A stretch of DNA of 64,000 nucleotides from NCBI RefSeq assembly GCF_002355155.1, contig NZ_AP017369.1:992001-1056000 (forward strand), read 5' to 3'. This DNA is from Corynebacterium suranareeae (lineage in GTDB: Bacteria; Actinomycetota; Actinomycetes; Mycobacteriales; Mycobacteriaceae). The translations under genes were made by a program, and so were the position numbers. The notes under the pieces were generated by a model. That model saw only the letters and a program-made list of their open reading frames with translations. It searched no databases and was not told where the DNA came from. Shown here piece by piece: positions 49,107 to 61,894 of this stretch. The first letter of the stretch is position 1; each line of letters begins with the position of its first letter.

Positions 49107-50159
49107 TTAGATGGGTTCAAACAGCTCTTTCAGGTGCTTATCAACCTGCGGGATGTAATTTTCTGAAAGGTTAAACAGTCCTAGGTGTCCGCCGATGTCT
49201 TCAATCACTCGAAGCTCACTGCCGGGGATAAGTTCTTGCTCAGCAGCGCAGTCACGGACAGGGAAGAACATATCCTCACTAATCGGCATGACGAAGGTCT
49301 TTGCCTTCACTCGGCCTAAAGCTGCCGCAAGGTCGCCATCAGTATGACGTGAGACATCGCCACGCTGCCACTTCCACGCATTGTGCAAAAGCGTGTTGGG
49401 ATCCATTGACATAAACAGCGGATCCAAGAAGTCTGCAAGCACAGATTCTTTAGTTTCTAACCCAAGGCGACGCCACGCCTCCTGCTTCCAAAACTCCGTC
49501 GAAAAGCCCATTACCGCCCACAGATGTGACTGACGACGAAGCCCATCCGCCACCTCAGTATGCGAAGAATATTCACCACCGTTAAACCCTGGATCGGCCT
49601 CGATGGTCTCATTCAAGGTTTGGGTGAAAAGGAAATCATGCGGAGTATTCTTTGCCGTTCCTGCAATCGGTGCAGCGCGGTGAACTTTGTCTGGGAAACG
49701 CACAATCCACTCATAGGTTTGTTGCGCACCCATTGAACCACCCACGACAGCAAAGAGCTCGGTGATGCCAAACTCTTGGCGAAGAAGCCTCTCTTGAGCC
49801 ACGACATCATCACCAATGCGCACCTTGGGGAACTTAGACATCGAAATGCTGGTATCAGTTGTATTGGCAGGGGAGACCGACAAACCATTACCGATTTGGT
49901 TGATGGAGATAATGAAATACTTTGATGGATCTAAAGCATGATCGGTGCCAATGTACTGCTGGAACCACGTCTGGTGAGTTCCCGAGTACCACGTCGGAAT
50001 AAGAATGGCGTTCGACTTATCCTCATTAAGCGTTCCGGCTGTCGCAAAAGCCAACCAGCAATCATCGATCACACCCCCTTCTTCTAGTTCCAGCCGTCCA
50101 ATGGATGCTGTTTCGTATGGGCCCTGTACCTCTGCGGTGTAAAAACTGTTGTCGAGCAT
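49107..50159 (-). CDS. Alpha/beta-hydrolase of the homoserine O-acetyltransferase (MetX) family
   Basis: 350 residues. Nucleophile elbow GGSMGAQQ (Ser about 144), later Asp in PISEDMFFPV and His in DIGGHLGLFN make a catalytic triad. MetX hallmarks such as NAILIPTWYSGTHQTWFQQYIG and GNGLSVSP are modified from true MetX (GGSMGG, GG...SSGP), so it may act on another alcohol or be a hydrolase. The ATG is preceded by TTTAAGGAGTTTG. It borders the accessory island. Confidence 0.8.
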   Translation of the reverse strand: MLDNSFYTAEVQGPYETASIGRLELEEGGVIDDCWLAFATAGTLNEDKSNAILIPTWYSGTHQTWFQQYIGTDHALDPSKYFIISINQIGNGLSVSPANTTDTSISMSKFPKVRIGDDVVAQERLLRQEFGITELFAVVGGSMGAQQTYEWIVRFPDKVHRAAPIAGTAKNTPHDFLFTQTLNETIEADPGFNGGEYSSHTEVADGLRRQSHLWAVMGFSTEFWKQEAWRRLGLETKESVLADFLDPLFMSMDPNTLLHNAWKWQRGDVSRHTDGDLAAALGRVKAKTFVMPISEDMFFPVRDCAAEQELIPGSELRVIEDIGGHLGLFNLSENYIPQVDKHLKELFEPI

Positions 50160-50594: not shown

Positions 50595-51080
50595 CTAATG
50601 GCACGAGCTAGAAGTAAATGAGAAATAATGTCCAAAAATTCGGTTAATTAAGTTTTGAGGATCACGCAATGACGTTGCGAGACGATCAATTGAACTAACA
50701 ACTAGCTGGTCGCCAGCACGTAGGTAGTCGATGCAGTCTTCTAGCCCTTGGCGCTCAGCTCGTGAACGAGCAGAGATTTTGTCCTGAAACTCGCGGTCAA
50801 CCGGTCCGATTGCTTCTCGCTGGCGTGCGAGATTCTGTTCTGCTGTGGAGACTCGAATATAGGACACCCTCTGTCCTGTGTGCTGCGTGCTTTTAGCAGA
50901 AGATTTTGGTGTTTGAGTCTTTGCAGCAGGGGCTGCTTGGTCAGTTTTCTCTTTCGGCCATGCTTCACCAGCGTCGAAGAGAACTTGATCCGGAGGGAAG
51001 TCTTCTACGTTGCTCCATTGACCACCGCCTTCATACAGTCTTGCCTTGATGACATGCTTACGGACTCTGTGCACGCTCAA
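50595..51080 (-). CDS. Truncated serine recombinase (resolvase N-terminal domain) with a foreign N-terminal part
   Basis: 161 residues. Residues ~70-146 are a resolvase catalytic domain: VSYIRVSTAEQNLARQ with the nucleophile Ser, GLEDCIDYLRAGDQLVVSSIDRLATSL. The C-terminal helix-turn-helix and rest of the domain are missing; it ends abruptly in FGHYFSFTSSSCH. Residues 1-65 (EGGGQWSNVEDFPPDQVLFDAGEAWP...) are unrelated to resolvases, so the gene looks like a fusion or a degenerate remnant. TTG 51080 or GTG 51074 start, no clear ribosome site. Recombination activity unlikely without a DNA-binding domain. Confidence 0.65.
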   Translation of the reverse strand: MSVHRVRKHVIKARLYEGGGQWSNVEDFPPDQVLFDAGEAWPKEKTDQAAPAAKTQTPKSSAKSTQHTGQRVSYIRVSTAEQNLARQREAIGPVDREFQDKISARSRAERQGLEDCIDYLRAGDQLVVSSIDRLATSLRDPQNLINRIFGHYFSFTSSSCH

Positions 51081-51326: not shown

Positions 51327-51533
51327 AGTTCACTGTCTCGTTAGGGTTAATAAGATATGGATACAATGTATCAAAATTAGGCTTTAGGGCATGGTGAGAC
51401 AGTAGTTGCTGGATCGGACTGCCTGTCTCACATGGGTATACCCCAGAGCAGCAGTGGGACGGACCCTAAACAATGCAGTCGTGGTAACCCCAAAACACCT
51501 GTTTCTCGGCAGATGGGGGCACCCCTCTAGGGC

Positions 51534-51800
51534 ATGACGCAACACAATTCGTCTCCCGGTGACCTCCTGATTGGGTACTGCCGAGTCTCCACTGCCGCCC
51601 AGAACCCGGATCGCCAACTGGAGACCAGCGGACCGGTCGACCGTGTCTTCATTGATAAGGCCTCCGGCAAGAGCGGCGCACCACGCCGAGGACTCGAGGA
51701 TTGCACCGACTGCCCCCGCGATGGCGACGAACCTCGGGTTACCTCGATGGGCCGGCTCGCCCACTCCCTGATTGATCTTCGCCAGCTAGTGGCGGCGCCT
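51534..51800 (+). pseudogene. Remnant of a second serine recombinase
   Basis: MTQHNSSPGDLLIGYCRVSTAAQNPDRQ then GPVDRVFIDKASGKSGAPRRGLEDC is a resolvase N-terminal domain with the nucleophile Ser in CRVST. Similarity fades near residue 90 (DLRQLVAA), where the opposite-strand zinc-ribbon gene begins, and conserved residues are already altered (CTDCPRDGDEPRVTSMGRLAHSL). The frame stays open to 51983 but that tail is shadow of the minus-strand gene. It is homologous to, and divergent from, the fragment at 50595-51080. Confidence 0.65.
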
Positions 51801-52303
51801 GCTGGAGCTAGGTATTCCGCCGTGCTTTGCGCGGACCGAAGTGCCGGTGTCAGGCACATCAAAGTCCTGAATGCTTGTCGGCTCGAAGGGATCGGCCATG
51901 GCATAGCGCTCGATGCGTCGCTGCCAACTGCGATCTTCCCGTCTGGCCCGGCGGGTGCTCCCAGTTTTCCTGCCGGACTTTGACTCTGACCGGGTGGGTT
52001 TAGAGGATTTTCTATGTGGCGTGTACTGCTGCGGTGCGTGCTGGTGGGCCTTGTCCGCCAGAGTCAGGCGGGGCTTAGCGGGACGGGGGTTACTGCTGGA
52101 AGGATTTTTCAGCTCCGTCCCATCCGGGAACACAAAGGCGACACCGTCATATGAGGGACGACACCACTGATCGCCCTTTTTCCGGGGTGCTGTGCAAACG
52201 CTCGGAGGTCAGCAAGAAATTGGACCTTCTTACCGCATTCATGGCAATAGGCACGACCTTTTTTCACGAAGGTTCTTCTGCGGATCCCGGGCCCTAGAGA
52301 CAT
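51786..52303 (-). pseudogene. Zinc-ribbon hypothetical protein split by a one-base frameshift
   Basis: The first frame (52303 down to 52181) gives MSLGPGIRRRTFVKKGRAYCHECGKK... and then breaks at a run of five A on the minus strand (52177-52181). Adding one A restores HPGKKGDQWCRPSYDGVAFVFPDGTELKN, continuous with the long frame ending at 51786 (about 172 residues in all). The repaired protein has C-x2-C-x15-H-x8-C-x-P-x2-D-G, exactly the spacing of the intact protein at 57769-58176. The tail is basic (SRRRH end, RRARREDRSWQRR). Could also be a sequencing error in the homopolymer. Confidence 0.7.
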
Positions 52304-52545
52304 AGATCAAACTATAAGAAATATTGACATCTCTCGCACAGTTTATATTTACATTCCTCTCTAAGTGTGGCTCTTTATCTAGAATTTCTACGCCAAGACT
52401 ATCTCCGCCCTCCAGCTCCCCCGGCAATCCGGGAGGCCACCGTTGCTCCCCTAAAGGGCCTGAGTGTGACTCGAACGGCGGACTCTAATGGCCAACACAG
52501 AGCTTTCTGCCGCAAAGAAGCATTGCTTTCTGACATGATTGACTC

Positions 52546-54315
52546 ATGGCGAAGACACTGTTTCGGGATACCTCCTTTGGCCTGCTGCACCTGGTGTCCA
52601 GCATCGAGCGTGGCGATATTGCCCTGCCCGAACTACAACGCCCCTTCGTGTGGAAAAACGCCTCAGTCCGGGATCTCTTTGACTCGATGTACAAGGGATT
52701 TCCCGTCGGCAACCTCCTGATGTGGGAAACCGGCGCAGATGCCAACGCCCGACAGATCGGCACAGGAGACAAGGAATCCCGCGCACCCCGGTGGCTAGTC
52801 GTGGACGGTCAGCAACGCCTGACGTCGCTGTTTTCTGTTTTCACCGGGCAAGAGGTCGTCCGCGAGGACTACAGCACCTCTCGCATCGTGCTGTCGTTTC
52901 GCCCCCGCGACGAGTCCTTTGAGGTGGCCGGCGGGATCACCCGCAATGACCCCGAGTATCTGCCCGATATCACCCTTTTGTGGTCGGATGACTATAAAAA
53001 GGTCAAGCGCGAATTCTTCCGCCGGCTCCAGGACGCCAAGGGTGAGCTCTCCGACGATGAGGTCGACGCGATGGACGATGTGCTCGACCAGGTGCGCAGC
53101 CTGCAGAGCTTTCCCTTCCATGTCATCGAACTCGATGCCGCCATCGACGAAGAACAGCTCGCCGAGGTCTTCGTGCGGATCAACTCCGGTGGTGTGAAGC
53201 TCAACCAGGCGGACTTCATCCTCACGATCATGAGCGTGTTCTGGGACGAGGGCCGCAAGGAACTCGAAACCTTCGCCCAAGCCTGCAAAACCCCGGCCAA
53301 AGGCACCTCCTCGCCGTTTAACTGGATGATCGCACCCCAGCCCGACCAACTCCTGCGGGTGTGTATTGCCCTGGCATTTCGCCGCGCGGTCATGCGTCAC
53401 GCATACTCGGTGCTGCGCGGCAAGGACCTGGCCACCGGGATAGTCTCCGCTGAGGCGCGGGAGTCGCAGTTCGCTCGGCTCCAGGAGGCCCAGAAGCACG
53501 TTCTCGATGTCACCTTCTGGCATGAGTACCTCCGCTGTCTGGAGCGGGCGGGATTCCGCGGTGAGAAGATGATCACCAGTGAAAACGCCGTGATCTTCAG
53601 CTACGTCATGTGGCTGGTCGGGCGCATCGATTACCAGGTGCCGGTCGATGAGCTGCGCGAGGTCATCGCCCGCTGGTTTTTCATGGCACACACTACCCGC
53701 CGGTATACCGGCTCGTTTGAGACCCAGGTCGAACGCGACCTGGCCTCACTAGGGACCGTCACGGGCGCCGATGGTTTCATTCGTCATCTGGATCAGATCA
53801 TCCGGGAGCAGCTGACCAACGACTTCTGGACGATCACGATGCCCAACGAACTCGGTACCTCCGCCTCGAGGAGCCCCGCCCTGTCGGCGTATCTGGCCGG
53901 GTTGAACATTCTCGATGCGGAGTCGTTGATGTCCACCGGCCGGGTCCGGGACCGGTTGGACCCGGCCGTTACCTCTACCAAGGGTATTGAACGCCACCAC
54001 CTGTTCCCCAAGGCCTACCTGTCGAAGAAAATAGGCATTTCTGATCCCAAGAAGATCAACCAGATCGCCAACATGGCCCTGGTCGAGTGGAACGTCAATA
54101 TCGACATCTCCGATAGTGCGCCCTCGGAGTACTGGCCGAAGGTCATCGAGGCGAAGGGCCATCTCACGGAGGACAGGATCGCTGAGCAGCGCAGACTTCA
54201 CGCACTCCCGGACAGCTGGCCTGAGATCGATTACAAGGAGTTCCTTGAGCAGCGTCGACATCTGATGGCGGCCGTTACCCGCGAAGCATTCGAAAAGCTT
54301 GCTTCCGAACAATAA
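52546..54315 (+). CDS. DUF262-DUF1524 (GmrSD-type) restriction-like nuclease
   Basis: 589 residues. N-terminal DUF262 domain with LPELQRPFVW (27-36) and the nucleotide-binding DGQQR (87-91), followed by RINSGGVKLNQADF. C-terminal DUF1524 HNH-like nuclease: ERHHLFPKAYL (His484-His485) and INQIANMALVEWNVN. Fused proteins of this type include GmrSD, BrxU and SspE, which restrict phage with modified DNA, often driven by nucleotide hydrolysis. No methylase or Ssp/Dnd partner is adjacent. GC-rich relative to the island to its right; ATG 52546 has no strong ribosome site. Confidence 0.9.
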   Translation: MAKTLFRDTSFGLLHLVSSIERGDIALPELQRPFVWKNASVRDLFDSMYKGFPVGNLLMWETGADANARQIGTGDKESRAPRWLVVDGQQRLTSLFSVFTGQEVVREDYSTSRIVLSFRPRDESFEVAGGITRNDPEYLPDITLLWSDDYKKVKREFFRRLQDAKGELSDDEVDAMDDVLDQVRSLQSFPFHVIELDAAIDEEQLAEVFVRINSGGVKLNQADFILTIMSVFWDEGRKELETFAQACKTPAKGTSSPFNWMIAPQPDQLLRVCIALAFRRAVMRHAYSVLRGKDLATGIVSAEARESQFARLQEAQKHVLDVTFWHEYLRCLERAGFRGEKMITSENAVIFSYVMWLVGRIDYQVPVDELREVIARWFFMAHTTRRYTGSFETQVERDLASLGTVTGADGFIRHLDQIIREQLTNDFWTITMPNELGTSASRSPALSAYLAGLNILDAESLMSTGRVRDRLDPAVTSTKGIERHHLFPKAYLSKKIGISDPKKINQIANMALVEWNVNIDISDSAPSEYWPKVIEAKGHLTEDRIAEQRRLHALPDSWPEIDYKEFLEQRRHLMAAVTREAFEKLASEQ

Positions 54316-54836
54316 AGCAGGGTAGTAGGTCACATCGTCTCAGCCTGAAGAAACGAGCTAAGGAACTCGGGTCTTGCGACGAGTACGGGGTTAGCCAGAT
54401 GCACCCGTGCTATCGGGTGTAGGTGATGTGGTTACTCCACTGTTTCCTCAGTCGGAGAGTTCTTTTTGAACCTGGATGTCACGGGGGAAATGCGGACCGG
54501 AGAAGATGCTCATGGCTCTGATTATTTCACGTCGCTCTTCCTACTGCGCCAACTTTGCAACAGCACCTTGCTTTCGGCAATCTTGCTTGTGGGTGTGATC
54601 GGTAAATTCATGGCCGAGCTGGGTGAACTTACCGTCCTGTTCAAAGCGGGACTGGGCTGCCCGACATGCATGTAGACACGGATGTCACTGTTACTGGCGA
54701 ACGTGAGCTCCGGATTGATGGTTATGGCCCCTGCGAGTGGCTCTTTGGTGCGGATGGTCAGTGGGCCACCCGATAGGTACCGGCTCCGATTCGAGCCGAC
54801 TGGACCCAATCACTTTACGAGTGTTAAAGTTATTGT
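54316..54836. other. Intergenic region, possible mobile-element debris
   Basis: 520 bases with two overlapping low-quality frames and no recognisable protein. TTTGCAACAGCACC at 54554-54567 recalls IS6-family ends (TTTGCAACAGTGCC) with two mismatches, but no matching second end or transposase remnant is visible. Confidence 0.4.
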
Positions 54837-55262
54837 ATGGATGTAAACAGCATTTCTATTCATAATGCAACCCGTATGGTCGCCGTGGGTGAGAAGGCTG
54901 CTCATGACGCGCGGCGGACCACTCGCTGGTTCCGTGTCTTTGTGATCATGCAGGTGGCCTACGCTTTGGCGCTCACCCTGTCGATCGATGTCGCTGGTGT
55001 AGACTACTGGAAGGCCTTCGCGCCGTTCGTGCTGGTGACGCTGTGTATCTGGATGATCGCGTTCCAGTACCGGAGGACGGTTCCGCGACACGGGCTACGG
55101 AACATGGGGATCGCGGTGGCGACGTGGTTTGTGCTGTACACCCTGATGTTCGATCCGGCGCTGCAGTTGTTTGGGCTGTCGTCGCCATGGTGGTGGGTGC
55201 TGGCAGGCGTGGTTGCTGTCACTCCGATCCTCGCGTGCCTATTCGCAAGCTCACGCCGATGA
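54837..55262 (+). CDS. Small four-helix membrane protein
   Basis: 141 residues with a hydrophilic N-terminus (about 30 residues) and four membrane segments (about 33-52, 60-76, 88-107, 116-136). Not recognised by family. Its stop overlaps the ATG of the winged-helix regulator (ATGA), so it is first in a translationally coupled operon membrane protein-regulator-acetyltransferase. Confidence 0.75.
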   Translation: MDVNSISIHNATRMVAVGEKAAHDARRTTRWFRVFVIMQVAYALALTLSIDVAGVDYWKAFAPFVLVTLCIWMIAFQYRRTVPRHGLRNMGIAVATWFVLYTLMFDPALQLFGLSSPWWWVLAGVVAVTPILACLFASSRR

Positions 55263-55633
55263 CCACACCCAAAACGACAAGGTCACAACAATCTGAGTCA
55301 AAGTATGGGGGTCATCCACGCAAAGACCTCGATGCCCTCGTCCATTCCCCTGTGCGGTTTTCGTTGCTCGCCGCGTTACAGAATTTGGAGGATGTGGACT
55401 TCCGGTTCATTGCAGACCTTCTCGAGGTGAGCGACTCTACTCTCTCCCAGACGCTCACTGTGCTGGCAGATGCAGGCCTTGTGACGGTGCGCAAAGAAGC
55501 AATGGGTAGACGGACTCGTACCTGGGTCGGTATCACCGCCACCGGACGCATTGCGTTTGAACGGCACCTGGAGACATTGCAAGCCATCGTCAGCACCGGC
55601 ACAGTGGAGCAACCATCGGAGGAAACCACATGA
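55259..55633 (+). CDS. Winged-helix transcriptional regulator (MarR/ArsR-like, PF13601 type)
   Basis: 124 residues. LDALVHSPVRFSLLAAL, FRFIADLLEVSDSTLSQTLTVLADAGLVTVRK and GRRTRTWVGITATGRIAFERHL fit the winged-helix family that includes small transport/resistance regulators. Probably a dimeric DNA-binding protein controlling its own operon. Both its ends overlap neighbours by four bases. Confidence 0.88.
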   Translation: MTTPKTTRSQQSESKYGGHPRKDLDALVHSPVRFSLLAALQNLEDVDFRFIADLLEVSDSTLSQTLTVLADAGLVTVRKEAMGRRTRTWVGITATGRIAFERHLETLQAIVSTGTVEQPSEETT

Positions 55634-56220
55634 ACACGAGCATTCGAGTACGCGTCGCAGACGCAGATGATCTTGCTGCTGCTGCCGACACCCTCGCGGC
55701 TGCGTTCGAGCACTACCCCTGGACCCGCTACGTGATCCCGCAGGAGCACTATCATGAGCGTTTGCGTGCCCTGCAAAAGCTATACCTGGAGTATGCCCAG
55801 GCGAACGGCATCGTCGGCGTCGCAGGCCACTGCGATGGTGTGATTGCGCTCCTTCCCCCTGATGCACCTGAACCAGAGCCGGGGATGGTCGATGAGGTGA
55901 TGCGCCTGCATGGTGACAGGATCGGCAGGCTCCAACAGGGCGACCCGCCCGCGGGTGCGTGGCGTGTGGAGACCCTGGGCGTGCGCCCGGAACGACAAGG
56001 GCAACGGCTGGCATCGACACTCCTTGTCTTTGCGCTGGCCGAGGCAGTCCGCCGGGGCGGCGAACAGGTCGTGCTCGACACCTCCGATCCGCGAAACGTC
56101 CGCCTCTACGAACGCCACGGCTTCCACACCACGACCCACTCCGATAACGGTGATGGCCCGCTAATATGGACCATGACCGCGACCTTTGAAAACTCCACGA
56201 CAAGGGAAGCTTCCCTATGA
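55630..56220 (+). CDS. GNAT-family N-acetyltransferase
   Basis: 196 residues. GNAT motif A is clear (VETLGVRPERQGQRLASTLL, about 116-135; acetyl-CoA binding Q/RxxGxG/A version), and motif B follows (VVLDTSDPRNVRLYERHGFH). Substrate unknown. ATGA overlaps with the regulator upstream and with the broken NTF2-like frame downstream suggest one operon of at least five genes in its ancestral state. Confidence 0.88.
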   Translation: MNTSIRVRVADADDLAAAADTLAAAFEHYPWTRYVIPQEHYHERLRALQKLYLEYAQANGIVGVAGHCDGVIALLPPDAPEPEPGMVDEVMRLHGDRIGRLQQGDPPAGAWRVETLGVRPERQGQRLASTLLVFALAEAVRRGGEQVVLDTSDPRNVRLYERHGFHTTTHSDNGDGPLIWTMTATFENSTTREASL

Positions 56221-56750
56221 CAACGGCTGCCACAGTGTTAGAGGAGTATCTAGCTGTCGCGAATATGCACGACTTTGACCAAGTGTAGAAGATCGTCGCT
56301 CCCGATGCGGTCAATTTCTTCGGGGATGCGAGCTGTGTAGGTCTGGCTGAGGTGCGGACCTATTTCACGCGCACCTGGGCAATGAATCCTGTCGAGTAGT
56401 ATTGGGCCGAAAACACCAAATGGGTCACGCGCACACAGGACGCTGCTGTGCCAATCTACGCATACCACTGCAAAGGCACGATCAACGGAGTGCAGTGTTC
56501 CGGCGCCGGGCATGCCATCAACGTCTCCGCATACACTGGTCACAGATCGCAACTCACACACGAACACCTCAACCCAATGCCTCTCACTCGAATAGTCCAG
56601 CTGGGTACGGAGGTCGGAGAATGGGAAGGCTATATTTCGTGCCCCATCCCGAAGCTACACGCCACATCGACGGTCTCGTCGGCGGCTGGCACGACTCCGA
56701 ACTCACCGCCACAGGCAGAGAGGGTATCGGCGGGGTCGGAGCTTCGTTGA
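56217..56750 (+). pseudogene. NTF2-like (SnoaL-type) protein interrupted by two in-frame amber codons
   Basis: From ATG 56217 (overlapping the GNAT stop) the frame reads MTTAATVLEEYLAVANMHDFDQV, TAG (56286-56288), KIVAPDAVNFFGDASCVGLAEVRTYF..., TAG (56397-56399), YWAENTKWVTRTQDAAVPIYAYHC... and on to HEHLNPMP. With both codons read through it is a continuous SnoaL-like cone fold of about 120 residues; similarity stops near 56585. Both are TAG and no frameshift occurs, consistent with two C-to-T changes of CAG. Confidence 0.75.
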
Positions 56751-57033
56751 GAAACAGGATCCCTTCTGGTGAACACACTGAGCTGTACTCGTCAGACCTG
56801 AAGTGCGCTTCGCAGACCGCAGAAGCTATCAGTGGGCACCTGGGAATCCCGCCTGCCTTCGACGCACCCTTACGTGAGAAGTCGTACTGAGTTGCCGAAG
56901 GCAGGTCGCAGGCCTGGCTTGATGAGCATTGTCGGACTCCACCAAAAGACGAGGAACGTATGAGCCACGACAAAATATCGAGGGGGCCGAAACTATGTGT
57001 GCACTCGGCACCTGCATCTATGAAGTTGTCTAG
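56621..57033 (+). pseudogene. Broken histidine-phosphatase (phosphoglycerate mutase-like) gene
   Basis: MGRLYFVPHPEATRH...GGWHDSELTATGREGI...LYSSDLKCASQTAEAI...LREKSY is a histidine-phosphatase fold. The catalytic RHG motif is altered to PHP, TGA at 56888-56890 interrupts where GGA (Gly of REKSYG) is expected, and a one-base loss at 56972-56975 shifts the frame; the repaired tail ends at TAG 57031. It starts near the end of the NTF2-like frame. Confidence 0.7.
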
Positions 57034-57334
57034 CTTCAGATCGTCTGTGAGGGCCGTTAGCTATTAATTATGTGCTCCGTAAGGAAATAAACGTTGAAGG
57101 TTGAACTGTCATTCTAACAACAGTTTCTGTCGCCCCTCTTATAGCTTCAGCGAGAGCGTCACGCCATTTGAAAAATAAGTTCTTGTGGCGATCCGTGCTT
57201 ATTCCCAGTGCTTTTTAAAAGACAGTTACGGAGCTATTCAATTGATCTTTAATAACCCTGCAGCAGTCGATTATGGTGCCTTTTAATTGCCAGGTAATCG
57301 CCTCGTTATTGACCGATAGGGGGCAATAGGAATT
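57034..57334. other. AT-rich gap at the start of the low-GC part of the island
   Basis: 301 bases without a supported gene. It holds the promoter region for the gene at 57335, but I could not choose a promoter confidently. Confidence 0.5.
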
Positions 57335-57706
57335 ATGCAGTATCGACAGTTAAGCAAAATTTTTCATGCAGCTCATCATGCACAGGCTCGCGAGCTCGTA
57401 GAAACTACTTATCGTGAGCGGCTCAATCGTCCCGAGACAGTAAATACCGGCGTGCTGGTGGGTGGTTTTCCGCTGTTTTGTGTCGTTGACGAAGAAGTCG
57501 AAGCGTTAGTTTCTGAGCTGAAGCGGCTCGATGCACAGCTGTCGCAGCAGATTAATGGGCAGAAATTGCATGATCTCGCCGGCGAGGAAGTCGTTGCGAG
57601 TAACGGTGCTGTTGCAAAGTTGGGGCAGGTCAGATCTAACGCTGAAGACAGCTGTTTGGCATTTGCTAAACTTTGCGAATTGGGTGTTTTTGATTGGATG
57701 TTTTAG
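57335..57706 (+). CDS. Hypothetical protein
   Basis: 123 residues from ATG 57335 (TAGGAATT upstream). Mostly helical: an N-terminal helix (QLSKIFHAAHHAQARELVETTYRERL), a strand-turn (TGVLVGGFPLFCVVDEE) and a long helix (EVEALVSELKRLDAQLSQQIN) ending in FDWMF. No family recognised. Opposite orientation to the zinc-ribbon gene at 57769 and of similar low GC, so probably acquired. Confidence 0.55.
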   Translation: MQYRQLSKIFHAAHHAQARELVETTYRERLNRPETVNTGVLVGGFPLFCVVDEEVEALVSELKRLDAQLSQQINGQKLHDLAGEEVVASNGAVAKLGQVRSNAEDSCLAFAKLCELGVFDWMF

Positions 57707-57768
57707 ATACTGGTTGGATTCATTGTGGATTGGATCACAGCTACTACGTTAGACGGTTTGGTAGTTTT

Positions 57769-58176
57769 CTAGAATCTCTTCCGGCTCGACATCATAGAAC
57801 CGCCTAAAACTGTTCGTCTTTCGCTCTGTACTTCGCTGAACTCTTCCGAATTCTGACGTGAGAAGCTTTCACGGTCAAGAGCTTTTTCATCTCCTGTGCG
57901 AATCCTTTTAGCACGAAGTGCCGAAGTAACGTGCCCATTGTAGGCTTTGATCTGGTACCCATCTAGATCGGGTTCGCATGGTTCCCCAGTAGCGGTGAAA
58001 GTGTGAGGTAAAAAATTCATTATCGATCTGTCGAAGAAAATGCTTTTATAACAATTAGGACAATAGCCTCTGCTGCCGATATTAAGTTTGATTTCTGGTT
58101 TCAAGCGTGGCGCTCGTTTACTGGAGCGGTTTCTTTTGGCTAAGGGTTTCTTACGTGAGCCACGGTTCTTAGTCAT
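57769..58176 (-). CDS. Intact zinc-ribbon hypothetical protein
   Basis: 135 residues. A basic N-terminus (MTKNRGSRKKPLAKRNRSSKR) precedes YCPNCYKSIFF...FLPHTFTATGEPCEPDLDG: C-x2-C-x15-H-x8-C-x-P-x2-D-G (about residues 38-69), a Cys3His zinc site by spacing. The C-terminus is Ser/Arg-rich. The motif and spacing match the frameshifted gene at 51786-52303 exactly. A nucleic-acid-binding role is suggested by basic flanks only. Function unknown. Confidence 0.65.
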   Translation of the reverse strand: MTKNRGSRKKPLAKRNRSSKRAPRLKPEIKLNIGSRGYCPNCYKSIFFDRSIMNFLPHTFTATGEPCEPDLDGYQIKAYNGHVTSALRAKRIRTGDEKALDRESFSRQNSEEFSEVQSERRTVLGGSMMSSRKRF

Positions 58177-58417: not shown

Positions 58418-58936
58418 CTACCTGCGACTGACCCGTCTAGTCCATGTATTTGGAACTTGTCGCTTTGGTTGATTTTCAGCTAGAAATGCTGCGGCATCCT
58501 CGCGCTTGCTAAAACTTAAACGTGCATTCTCGCCCAGCTCCTCGCGGTCTAAGAGATTAGCTACGCGCCTGTGGCTCTTTGGAAATAGCTCGGTGCTCAA
58601 ATCAGCGAAGATCAGATCTCGAACACCGAAACGACCGTTAATTGGTTGCTGATGTGACGCCGGATCATTTGCGTCACATGTAATAGCGAGGTGCCACTTT
58701 TTACAAGAACACTTTTTCAGGTCTTCTGTCTCTGCAAAGAGTGCGGGTAATTGTGCGCGGTTCAGTGTTCCAGATGGGATCTCAGATGCTAGAGCTTGTT
58801 TATGGACAGTGCCAATCCACTTATTGGTGGAGGTTAAGATAATGTCAGCTGCTCCTGGGACAACGTCCGTGAAACGGTACATTTTTTCAGGAGTTGAGTT
58901 GTGTGTATGGTGCAATTTTTGAGCGGTTCCTTTCAA
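58418..58936 (-). CDS. Hypothetical protein with a Cys-rich centre
   Basis: Up to 172 residues from TTG 58936 (GAAAGGA lies upstream of a second TTG at 58915); ATG 58882 is a weaker option. KKCSCKKWHLAITCDANDPASHQQ (about residues 74-97) could bind metal. The C-terminal part is SFSKREDAAAFLAENQPK, helical. Not recognised. Lies between the zinc-ribbon gene and a broken small gene on the island. Confidence 0.5.
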   Translation of the reverse strand: MKGTAQKLHHTHNSTPEKMYRFTDVVPGAADIILTSTNKWIGTVHKQALASEIPSGTLNRAQLPALFAETEDLKKCSCKKWHLAITCDANDPASHQQPINGRFGVRDLIFADLSTELFPKSHRRVANLLDREELGENARLSFSKREDAAAFLAENQPKRQVPNTWTRRVSRR

Positions 58937-59632: not shown

Positions 59633-60577
59633 ATGGAAAACAAACCTAACACGAATGACAGATACCTCACCTATGGTGTTTCATTCGATCTCCACATCTC
59701 ACGATTTCCAGTAAAAAATGAATCACTGTTGGCGCAGGAAGATATTGATGCCTTGTCGACAAACTCGGTGATCAAGCTTTCGAGCGAGACCCGTGAAGCC
59801 GTGCAAGACCTGATCAAGGCGGTTCTGAAGTTGAAGAACCGCCCCCAACCCGATGAATTTCAGATTTCAAACGTGGACATGATGCTCAAAGGATTAAGCG
59901 AAATAATGACTGATAATGACTACCTGGCAAAGATCGTGAATAACGCGCAGATGCTCCCCGGTATCGATTTTCTGGCCAACCTGCTGGGTAAAGATGGCGA
60001 GGAAGTTGACAGCCCTGATGCAGACTTCGACTACACTGCTGATGTCATCAGAGGTGCTCTGGTTGTAGCAAGCCTTCAAATGATTGATGAGCTTTTCAGC
60101 GATCTGCGCCTGTTGGAGCGTAAGTACTCAGACGATGTGAACGAAGCAATTTTGATCGAAGACACGATGGTCCTTTGTGGCTTGCCACGACGGTATGCAC
60201 ATCGCTATGACATCTTGTTTACACAGCGATTTCTCATGGCTGTTGCCGATGTGAGTTCATCCATGACAAACGGATGGATTCCTTTGCCAACAGTCGCACA
60301 CCAAATGGCGTTTAATCTCCTCCTCAATAATGCTGAAGCGGTGGTCGACGCTCTCGCAGCCTCAGATGATCGGATTGTGCCTATTTGGCGGGAGATTATG
60401 GACACGGCTCTGTTTCGAGATAGGGACTTCGAGCTGCTGTACGATCCGAGGTTCGATGGCGTGGAAGACGTTCACGACAGTGTGAAGCGGTACGAGAACC
60501 TCAATTTCGATGACTGGTTCACTCCTCTTTTTGGTCCGGGATCCTTGCCATCGCCATATCCACGGAATGATACCTAG
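59633..60577 (+). CDS. Orphan hypothetical protein
   Basis: 314 residues, acidic, predicted mostly helical, no signal peptide or membrane segment. Notable stretches: an N-terminal TYGVSFDLHISRFPV strand pair, a helical core (ADVIRGALVVASLQMIDELFSDLRLLERKYSDD, about 144-176), a RYAHRYDILFTQRFLM region and an aromatic/Pro-rich C-terminus (NFDDWFTPLFGPGSLPSPYP). I do not recognise a family. It converges with another orphan of similar size across a shared terminator, which is a common arrangement in accessory islands. Confidence 0.7.
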   Translation: MENKPNTNDRYLTYGVSFDLHISRFPVKNESLLAQEDIDALSTNSVIKLSSETREAVQDLIKAVLKLKNRPQPDEFQISNVDMMLKGLSEIMTDNDYLAKIVNNAQMLPGIDFLANLLGKDGEEVDSPDADFDYTADVIRGALVVASLQMIDELFSDLRLLERKYSDDVNEAILIEDTMVLCGLPRRYAHRYDILFTQRFLMAVADVSSSMTNGWIPLPTVAHQMAFNLLLNNAEAVVDALAASDDRIVPIWREIMDTALFRDRDFELLYDPRFDGVEDVHDSVKRYENLNFDDWFTPLFGPGSLPSPYPRNDT

Positions 60578-60671: not shown

Positions 60672-61577
60672 TTAATCCGTCTCATTTCTATTTTGATAGA
60701 AGCTTTTTACTGATTCCATCGTGGTTTCGTAATCTTCTACGAACAGGATTTCGTACTCAAACCAGAATTGTGGTGACGATCTAAGGCTCACTAACAACTC
60801 CGAAAGATCAGGGAAGACCCGATTTGGAAATAGTTGAGTCGTTTGAGAGAAGTTTATTTCGTCACAAATTATCGAAATGATATTGCTAATCCAATGAGCA
60901 TGCTCAAAGCATCGTAAAACGACATTGGCTGAATCCGGAAACAATGGCGCTCCGTAGTTGAATTCAAATCGGTTTACGACCGCCGCTTCTATAAAATCTG
61001 CACCTGTCGTATTCGCGATATTTTGAAGGGCTTCAGCCATTGTCTCGGGGTAAGCGCATCTCTCGATAAGCCAATCAGGTGGCTTACCAACGCTGCTCGC
61101 GAGCTTAAACCAATGATCGGTTACGCTCCTCAGAGGTTGCTTATTATCCGCTGTGCCTTTAGACAGAGACTCAAGGTGCTCATATCGCCCGGGCCCATTC
61201 GAATAGTGGGTGAGCAATTCTACCAGCGCCGTAGTGAAATCTGATGGGTTCTTAACAGGGGTAATTGGTCGACTATTTCTGTTAAAAGACAGAGCACTCA
61301 AGTCTATTTCGTCCACCTGTTTAAACAATTTATCGATATTGTGGCCAAAACTTTTAACAGGTTTAAACGTGTCGAGATTTAAATAGTCCCAGGCGGAAAG
61401 TGCTAACTTGCATAGTCTCTCAAGAGCTGTTGTCGTTGAAAGAAGACCTTCGTACAGGTGAAAATTATAGGCGCGGTGGCTTTCCCAGCAATCCCATTTC
61501 TTGGGGGGTAGGGACTCTGCTGAGCTGTAAAGCGCCGTGGTTAAACTGAGCAACACCAAATTGGCACTCTTGCGCAA
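60672..61577 (-). CDS. Orphan hypothetical protein, possibly HEPN-like
   Basis: 301 residues, AT-rich codon use. The N-terminal ~100 residues are helical with YEGLLSTTTALERLCKLALSAWDYL then GHNIDKLFKQVDE, which recalls HEPN-type folds (ALERLxKLAL...GHNIxxLF) seen in toxins and defence proteins; the canonical R-x4-6-H motif is not clear, so this is only a resemblance. A middle domain and a Trp-rich C-terminus (QFWFEYEILFVEDYETTM) follow. No membrane segments. Ends at the shared terminator with 59633-60577. Confidence 0.55.
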   Translation of the reverse strand: MRKSANLVLLSLTTALYSSAESLPPKKWDCWESHRAYNFHLYEGLLSTTTALERLCKLALSAWDYLNLDTFKPVKSFGHNIDKLFKQVDEIDLSALSFNRNSRPITPVKNPSDFTTALVELLTHYSNGPGRYEHLESLSKGTADNKQPLRSVTDHWFKLASSVGKPPDWLIERCAYPETMAEALQNIANTTGADFIEAAVVNRFEFNYGAPLFPDSANVVLRCFEHAHWISNIISIICDEINFSQTTQLFPNRVFPDLSELLVSLRSSPQFWFEYEILFVEDYETTMESVKSFYQNRNETD

Positions 61578-61814: not shown

Positions 61815-61821
61815 TATTTTG

Positions 61822-61894
61822 TGCCCTGGAGAGGAATCGAACCTCCGACACCCGCTTTAGGAGAGCGGTGCTCTATCCACTGAGCTACCAAGGC
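61822..61894 (-). tRNA. tRNA-Arg (CCU)
   Basis: 73-nt cloverleaf on the minus strand: acceptor GCCTTGG with CCAGGGC (one G-U), D-loop AGCTCAGTGGATAGAGC, anticodon loop CTCCTAA giving CCU, T-arm GGTTCGATTCC. CCA not encoded. Its 3' end faces the accessory island, the usual side for element insertion at tRNA genes. Confidence 0.95.

Follow-up and report, generated by a model that had tools for sequence, protein, structure and literature searches.

Two genes in an accessory region of Corynebacterium suranareeae belong to an undescribed family of probable zinc-ribbon proteins, some of them encoded in front of restriction genes

We analysed a 64-kb window of the 3.54-Mb chromosome of Corynebacterium suranareeae (NZ_AP017369.1, positions 992,001 to 1,056,000; coordinates below are those of the window). 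The window contains an accessory stretch bounded, according to the names suggested by its open reading frames (ORFs), by a homoserine-acetyltransferase-like gene (49107-50159) and a thyA-dfrA-mycoredoxin block (62.3-63.8 kb). This stretch carries two minus-strand genes with a Cys3His pattern, one intact and the other broken. The intact gene (57769-58176) encodes a protein of 135 amino acids with an isoelectric point (pI) of 10.3, which is 91% identical to its relative P0001; its nearest named relative is from Corynebacterium glutamicum. AlphaFold2 predicts a ribbon domain at about residues 28-85 (57922-58095), with C39, C42, H58 and C67 as candidate ligands, and alignments A2, A4 and A6 place a divergent version of the family's C-terminal tail, modelled with low confidence and ending in RRTVLGGSMMSSRKRF, at 57772-57828. 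The first piece of the broken copy (52113-52303) contains the start and C-x2-C-x15-H, and the second (51786-52178), in another frame, encodes about 130 residues with the last Cys, a basic linker and the tail GGIPSSSRRRH. Divergent from the broken copy, with start codons 242 bp apart, is a plus-strand gene (52546-54315) for a GmrSD-like type IV restriction protein. Its GmrSD_N domain (Pfam PF03235, E 4.3e-32) scores 112.3 bits against a Pfam cut-off of 33.2, and the product also matches PADLOC HEC-05 (1.6e-34); GmrSD_C (PF07510) is absent from its Pfam matches, and HNH-like residues can be seen by eye in the C-terminal third.

The second piece of the broken copy aligns over its whole length with three intact proteins of 172 amino acids, P0002, P0003 and P0004 (98, 71 and 62% identity), which carry the ribbon within a single reading frame, and an intact 172-amino-acid gene is also present in another Corynebacterium species (G168, L061:8917-9435, 98%). 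Because naturally intact relatives exist, the two pieces, which the first-pass annotation had joined by repairing a frameshift, represent a single disrupted gene rather than a frame that arose by chance. Either a mutation or a sequencing error could account for the break; a programmed frameshift was rejected because the intact relatives are read in one frame. The segment at 51434-54494, comprising the ribbon gene, the nuclease gene and a resolvase-like fragment, recurs in G168, where the alignment of 3062 bp is 99.41% identical (17 mismatches, a single gap), and the ribbon/GmrSD-like pair has therefore moved between species recently.

The intact protein and the two-frame pieces at 51786-52303 have C-x2-C-x15-H-x8-C in common. 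By BLASTP, P0002 and P0001 are weakly similar (23.9 bits over 37 residues). The intact protein scored 35.2 bits against a profile of seven relatives that had been built without it, whereas against the same profile the best full shuffle reached 13.2 bits (1999 scored of 2000 made) and the best of 2000 shuffles with the C and H positions fixed reached 19.4 bits, so that the motifs align better than shuffled sequences do. The far C-terminus, GG-x3-S-S-R-[RK]-R-[HF], is also common to the intact protein and P0002, a likeness that had gone unnoticed at first reading.

Profile searches covered genomes taken one per species, with the window's own genome counted. The A5 profile had matches in 33 of 242 Corynebacterium genomes at E 0.001, and the A2 profile in 21 of 201 at E 0.01; in a sample of the order, three of 200 genomes matched, namely, the own genome and two weak ones (E 0.006-0.007). 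A ribbon-only profile, with no tail sequence in it, matched six of 296 genomes at the class level. One of these matches lies in another genus (G288), and the protein ends in GGLPNSNRRRH.

Alignment A6 comprises 29 members and excludes near-copies and fragments (P0007, P0012, P0014, P0017, P0020), broken copies, the G070-C24 and G060 copies (the G060 place has an internal stop) and tail-only ORFs. The four candidate ligands C, C, H, C are invariant in all 29; the first spacing is x2 throughout, the second is x15 in 27 members and x14 and x31 in the remaining two, and the third ranges from 6 to 9, so that C-x2-C-x14-15-H-x6-9-C describes 28 of the 29, the window protein included, the exception being the member with x31. 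In 25 of 29, again including the window protein, the C-terminus has GG (or AG) with a basic end no more than a few residues beyond it; the four members that differ form one close group ending in SSGYTQ. The first-pass annotation had extended the motif to C-x-P-x2-D-G; this ending was rejected as a mark of the family, being present in four of 29 members and replaced by D-E even in P0001, whereas the Cys3His part stands. The signature is better shortened to C-x2-C-x15-H-x6-9-C together with the C-terminal GG tail. Members are built of a single or double ribbon followed by a basic linker, in many cases an EDSWGxDD stretch, and a tail of the form SVRAxSGG...RRR; tail-only genes also exist.

The proteins are basic (pI 9.6-11.5 in six members tested) and under purifying selection: the ratio of nonsynonymous to synonymous substitution rates (dN/dS) is 0.08 (G178/G150) and 0.14 (G042/G070) in ribbon pairs with usable synonymous distance. 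Two more ribbon pairs gave 0.12 and 0.07 at a synonymous distance above 2, three tail-only pairs gave 0.11-0.31, and two pairs from the thyA site and one tail-only pair were saturated. In the AlphaFold2 models of both proteins, the strand order of the ribbon is identical (block pLDDT, the model confidence measure, 79-89 and 78-92; for the intact protein over residues 21-80, with strands at 28-31, 36-38, 45-49, 75-77 and 83-85), and confidence is low over most of the remainder.

The best database matches among 24 members were weak (Pfam E 0.0024, NCBIfam E 0.0012, PHROGs E 0.0018), in keeping with the initial impression that no named family bears this signature. The closest, to the SCO2400 family (NCBIfam NF049861), covers the ribbon and linker in four of the 24 members, with a best E of 0.0012; the scores are far below that family's cut-off of 55 bits (16.6, 13.5 and 13.1 bits in the three of eight proteins for which it is listed). 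The uncharacterised phage families phrog_9188, phrog_6601 and phrog_33580 matched with best E values of 0.0018-0.0022, the phrog_6601 match spanning a ribbon, phrog_9188 covering a ribbon's first part and phrog_33580 lying on the linker side. Taken together, the comparisons support the two window proteins as members of one undescribed, uncurated family of probably zinc-binding Cys3His proteins; the sources searched call its members 'hypothetical protein' or leave them unnamed.

Family genes lie beside genes of type I restriction-modification (RM) systems far more often than expected. From 39 match rows, three of which were second pieces of genes already counted (G116, G000, G400) and were merged with them, we obtained 36 places in 33 genomes. 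Five of the 36 lie within 3 kb of HsdM_N, compared with 0.061 expected (about 80-fold; Poisson P 6.5e-9), a test that assumes uniform placement and an expectation that is slightly low because it uses the HsdM_N matches listed, from which the weak end is missing. At all five places, hsdM is downstream on the same strand. The next ORF follows the family gene after 66 bp (L104), 180 bp (L101), 171 bp (L146) or 122 bp (L149, where the member is tail-only), and at L099 hsdM starts about 1 kb beyond the family gene. An NYN-domain gene (below the Pfam cut-off at L146) and an N6-methylase-like gene intervene before hsdM at L101 and L146, and at L104 there is an intervening ORF with an N-terminus similar by eye and no Pfam match. 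The strongest independent check is the G288 member from another genus, since it was found using neither tail nor neighbours: although a single case, it stands divergently, 233 bp from a complete type I system, hsdM-hsdM-hsdS-hsdR. Among the neighbours of one further class-level match (L160), no restriction genes were seen by eye.

As a separate observation, ORFs of about 640-660 amino acids with a helix-turn-helix-like start precede hsdM at L104:7453-9444, L101:10231-12144 and L146:10435-12354. An N6-methylase domain is present in two of them, and no Pfam match was obtained for the ORF at L104; in PADLOC, the L101 ORF matches MTase_I (1.6e-27) and mad2 (2.5e-22).

Other defence genes also adjoin members of the family. 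GmrSD_N adjoins the broken copy in the window and its equivalent in G168, an HsdR remnant lies beside the G121 gene, an Abi_C protein is encoded next to the G191 gene, and a protein with PLD, ResIII and DUF3427 domains next to the G137 gene. We read the contexts of all 22 ribbon loci (the left flank of G150 being short) and of 10 of the 15 tail-only loci, with Pfam and PADLOC scans covering selected neighbour ORFs. In this post hoc hand count, 12 of the 22 ribbon loci, the intact window gene included, have a defence gene, or a remnant of one, no more than 5 kb away, and the family gene is on the 5' side in all nine arrangements whose nearest recognised neighbour is a defence gene other than a remnant, with short doubtful ORFs in between in some. 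Five of the nine are co-directional (G049, G045, G070-C21, G400 and the tail-only G001) and four divergent (G288, the G000/G168 GmrSD segment, G137 and G191). GmrSD homologues are reported to be enriched near type I RM genes (PMC4619093), and both kinds of neighbour therefore fit one defence-island setting. The family resembles those GmrSD/DUF262 islands in having the same two kinds of neighbour, GmrSD and type I RM, and differs from what is described there in that the main text of PMC4619093 does not use the word zinc.

Some members, then, stand at the front of restriction, that is, anti-phage, genes far above chance, and may help to control or assist them. A basic Cys3His ribbon protein encoded 5' of a defence gene, as in all nine arrangements counted post hoc, is most simply a regulator. 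We tentatively favour, as possible if short of probable, a family of zinc-ribbon, promoter-proximal regulators of the adjoining restriction genes. The ribbon and basic linker would bind nucleic acid, and the protein would act at the promoter region or leader of the adjoining restriction gene. The tail is present even in ribbon-less proteins, which suggests a common partner onto which it might dock. It would act much as controller (C) proteins do in type II systems. C proteins are helix-turn-helix proteins; unlike them, the family has a Cys3His ribbon, no helix-turn-helix match in the window proteins, and type I or type IV neighbours. It is like them in being a small protein encoded with restriction genes, here on the promoter side (for C proteins, see PMC12707154).

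Several results weigh against such a regulator. At the genome level, HsdM_N, present in at least 124 of the 242 Corynebacterium genomes, is not associated with the family (18 of 33 family genomes and 106 of 209 others among the matches listed; Fisher P 0.71), and two of the near-hsdM cases, G049 and G400, probably have RM systems of a single lineage. GmrSD_N is widespread in these genomes, at 29 places in 18 of them, and a single shared segment with GmrSD_N next to a ribbon gene does not exceed chance (0.13 expected, P 0.12); in G116, a GmrSD_C fragment is 3.4 kb from the family gene, with the ribbon at the 3' side of the remnant. The intact window gene itself has unknown proteins as its nearest neighbours and is separated by 3.45 kb from the GmrSD-like gene, on whose 3' side it lies. 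No recognised defence gene was found at 10 of the 22 ribbon loci (the second copy of G168, by selD/fdh, and G042, G070-C24, G148, G093, G060, G178, G150, G404 and G422). We found no inverted repeat in the divergent intergenic region (52290-52560), and upstream of the intact gene there are two short candidates. No helix-turn-helix family was obtained for the window proteins (Pfam, E up to 10) or among 25 of the 44 Pfam families listed for the 24 members, and no match was found among solved structures.

Several of these observations would suit a different explanation, in which the family gene is a resident or cargo gene of integration hotspots with an unrelated job of its own, such as one at the nucleoid or the ribosome, and the arrival of restriction systems next to it is incidental. 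At a chromosomal site defined by malQ, an antiporter and a GAP-like gene (from ORF reading), a ribbon gene is kept across related species, together with an RM system in G049 and G400, with a remnant in G121, and without any RM system in G042, G070 and G148 (loci L097, L098 and L103), the last three also counting against a regulator. Beyond the thyA-dfrA-mycoredoxin-tRNA-Arg(CCT) block lies a second shared site, occupied by the window's intact gene as well as by the ribbon genes of G093 and G178 (loci L105 and L141); G150 shares only the nearer neighbours of this site, as its contig begins there. In one species group, moreover, the chromosome carries the tail-only form as an orderly gene. The RM-free ribbon genes at the malQ site, the shared thyA site and the missing genome-level association count in favour of this explanation. 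Random landing, however, predicts neither the 5'-side position nor places beside hsdM at some 80 times the expectation, and we consider a hotspot passenger somewhat unlikely.

A protein that acts on the restriction enzyme or its DNA, in targeting, alleviation or the sensing of phage DNA, and not on the promoter, would be an accessory factor or a self-protection protein. The variety of the associated systems (type I, type IV-like, Abi_C and a helicase) fits a general helper that docks through one common tail. Such a factor is not required, however, because 106 of the 124 HsdM_N genomes, among the matches listed, are without the family. The antirestriction proteins ArdA and Ocr are acidic DNA mimics with a strong net negative charge, quite unlike the basic members of this family, and an accessory role of this kind seems distinctly improbable.

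We give still less credence to a mobile-element helper, that is, an accessory protein in recombination or transposition, and regard it as very improbable. An element-associated or defence role had been raised in the first-pass annotation, and the defence half gains from the neighbouring genes, whereas the element half is the weaker: at the sensitivity used, no relative was found in phages (queries P0002 and P0018), plasmids (the intact protein, P0002, P0018 and P0013) or IMG/VR viral contigs (five queries), and as far as searched the family is not mobile in the usual sense. What speaks for a helper are the resolvase fragments in the window, the 3.06-kb segment that recently passed from one species to another and an IS21-type transposase pair near L102; recombinases and transposases were seen beside some loci only. 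One fragment (50595-51080, minus strand) is a serine recombinase by Pfam (Resolvase, E 2.3e-16), so that both it and the restriction-like gene with GmrSD_N had been recognised correctly from the translations; the other (51534-51983, plus strand), overlapping the broken copy, was read from its translation as a serine-recombinase-like N-terminal fragment. Finally, that the motif arose by chance in two unrelated ORFs, as the low BLASTP score might suggest, has practically nothing left in its favour, given the shuffle test, the ligands invariant in 29 members and the low dN/dS.

Returning to regulation of the adjoining restriction genes, a broader and rather doubtful extension is that undescribed zinc-ribbon controllers or sensors plug into different restriction types in actinobacteria through one tail, with the stand-alone tail proteins as their partners or competitors. 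How type I systems are restrained on entering a new cell is only partly understood; PMC12707154 describes controller proteins for type II systems, and proteolysis or control of assembly for type I. If type I operons do have a small protein of their own encoded at the front, this would be a testable new layer of control, would help in locating defence genes in actinobacteria and would provide an address for the family.

Some further features concern the family's tail-only and broken forms. The G400 copy (L146:9101-9669), adjoining a type I operon, appears split between two frames. A tail-only protein of 69-75 amino acids occupies a shared chromosomal spot in one species group (L107, L111 and L148; for example, L148:9460-9669), where the L148 ORF abuts an ORF of 124 amino acids. 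Tail-only ORFs or remnants also adjoin a higBA-like toxin-antitoxin pair near selB (L109:8747-9336, L110 and L150), with HigB and helix-turn-helix domains confirmed by Pfam in L109 only.

Within the window, the intact ribbon gene is contained in a low-GC stretch (56.5-61.8 kb, mostly 43-52% GC) with the minus-strand tRNA-Arg(CCT) gene (61821-61894) at its edge; at L105 and L141, too, this tRNA gene is close to the ribbon gene. No long copy of the end of the tRNA gene was found, and the products of three further genes in the stretch (58418-58936, 59633-60577 and 60672-61577) had no Pfam match (E up to 10) and no PADLOC match. At the right end of the segment shared with G168, 54475-54569 has counterparts of 89-95% identity in 11 Corynebacterium plasmid records. 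Two of these are annotated with IS6 transposases at the matching place, so that this sequence is perhaps the end of an insertion sequence.

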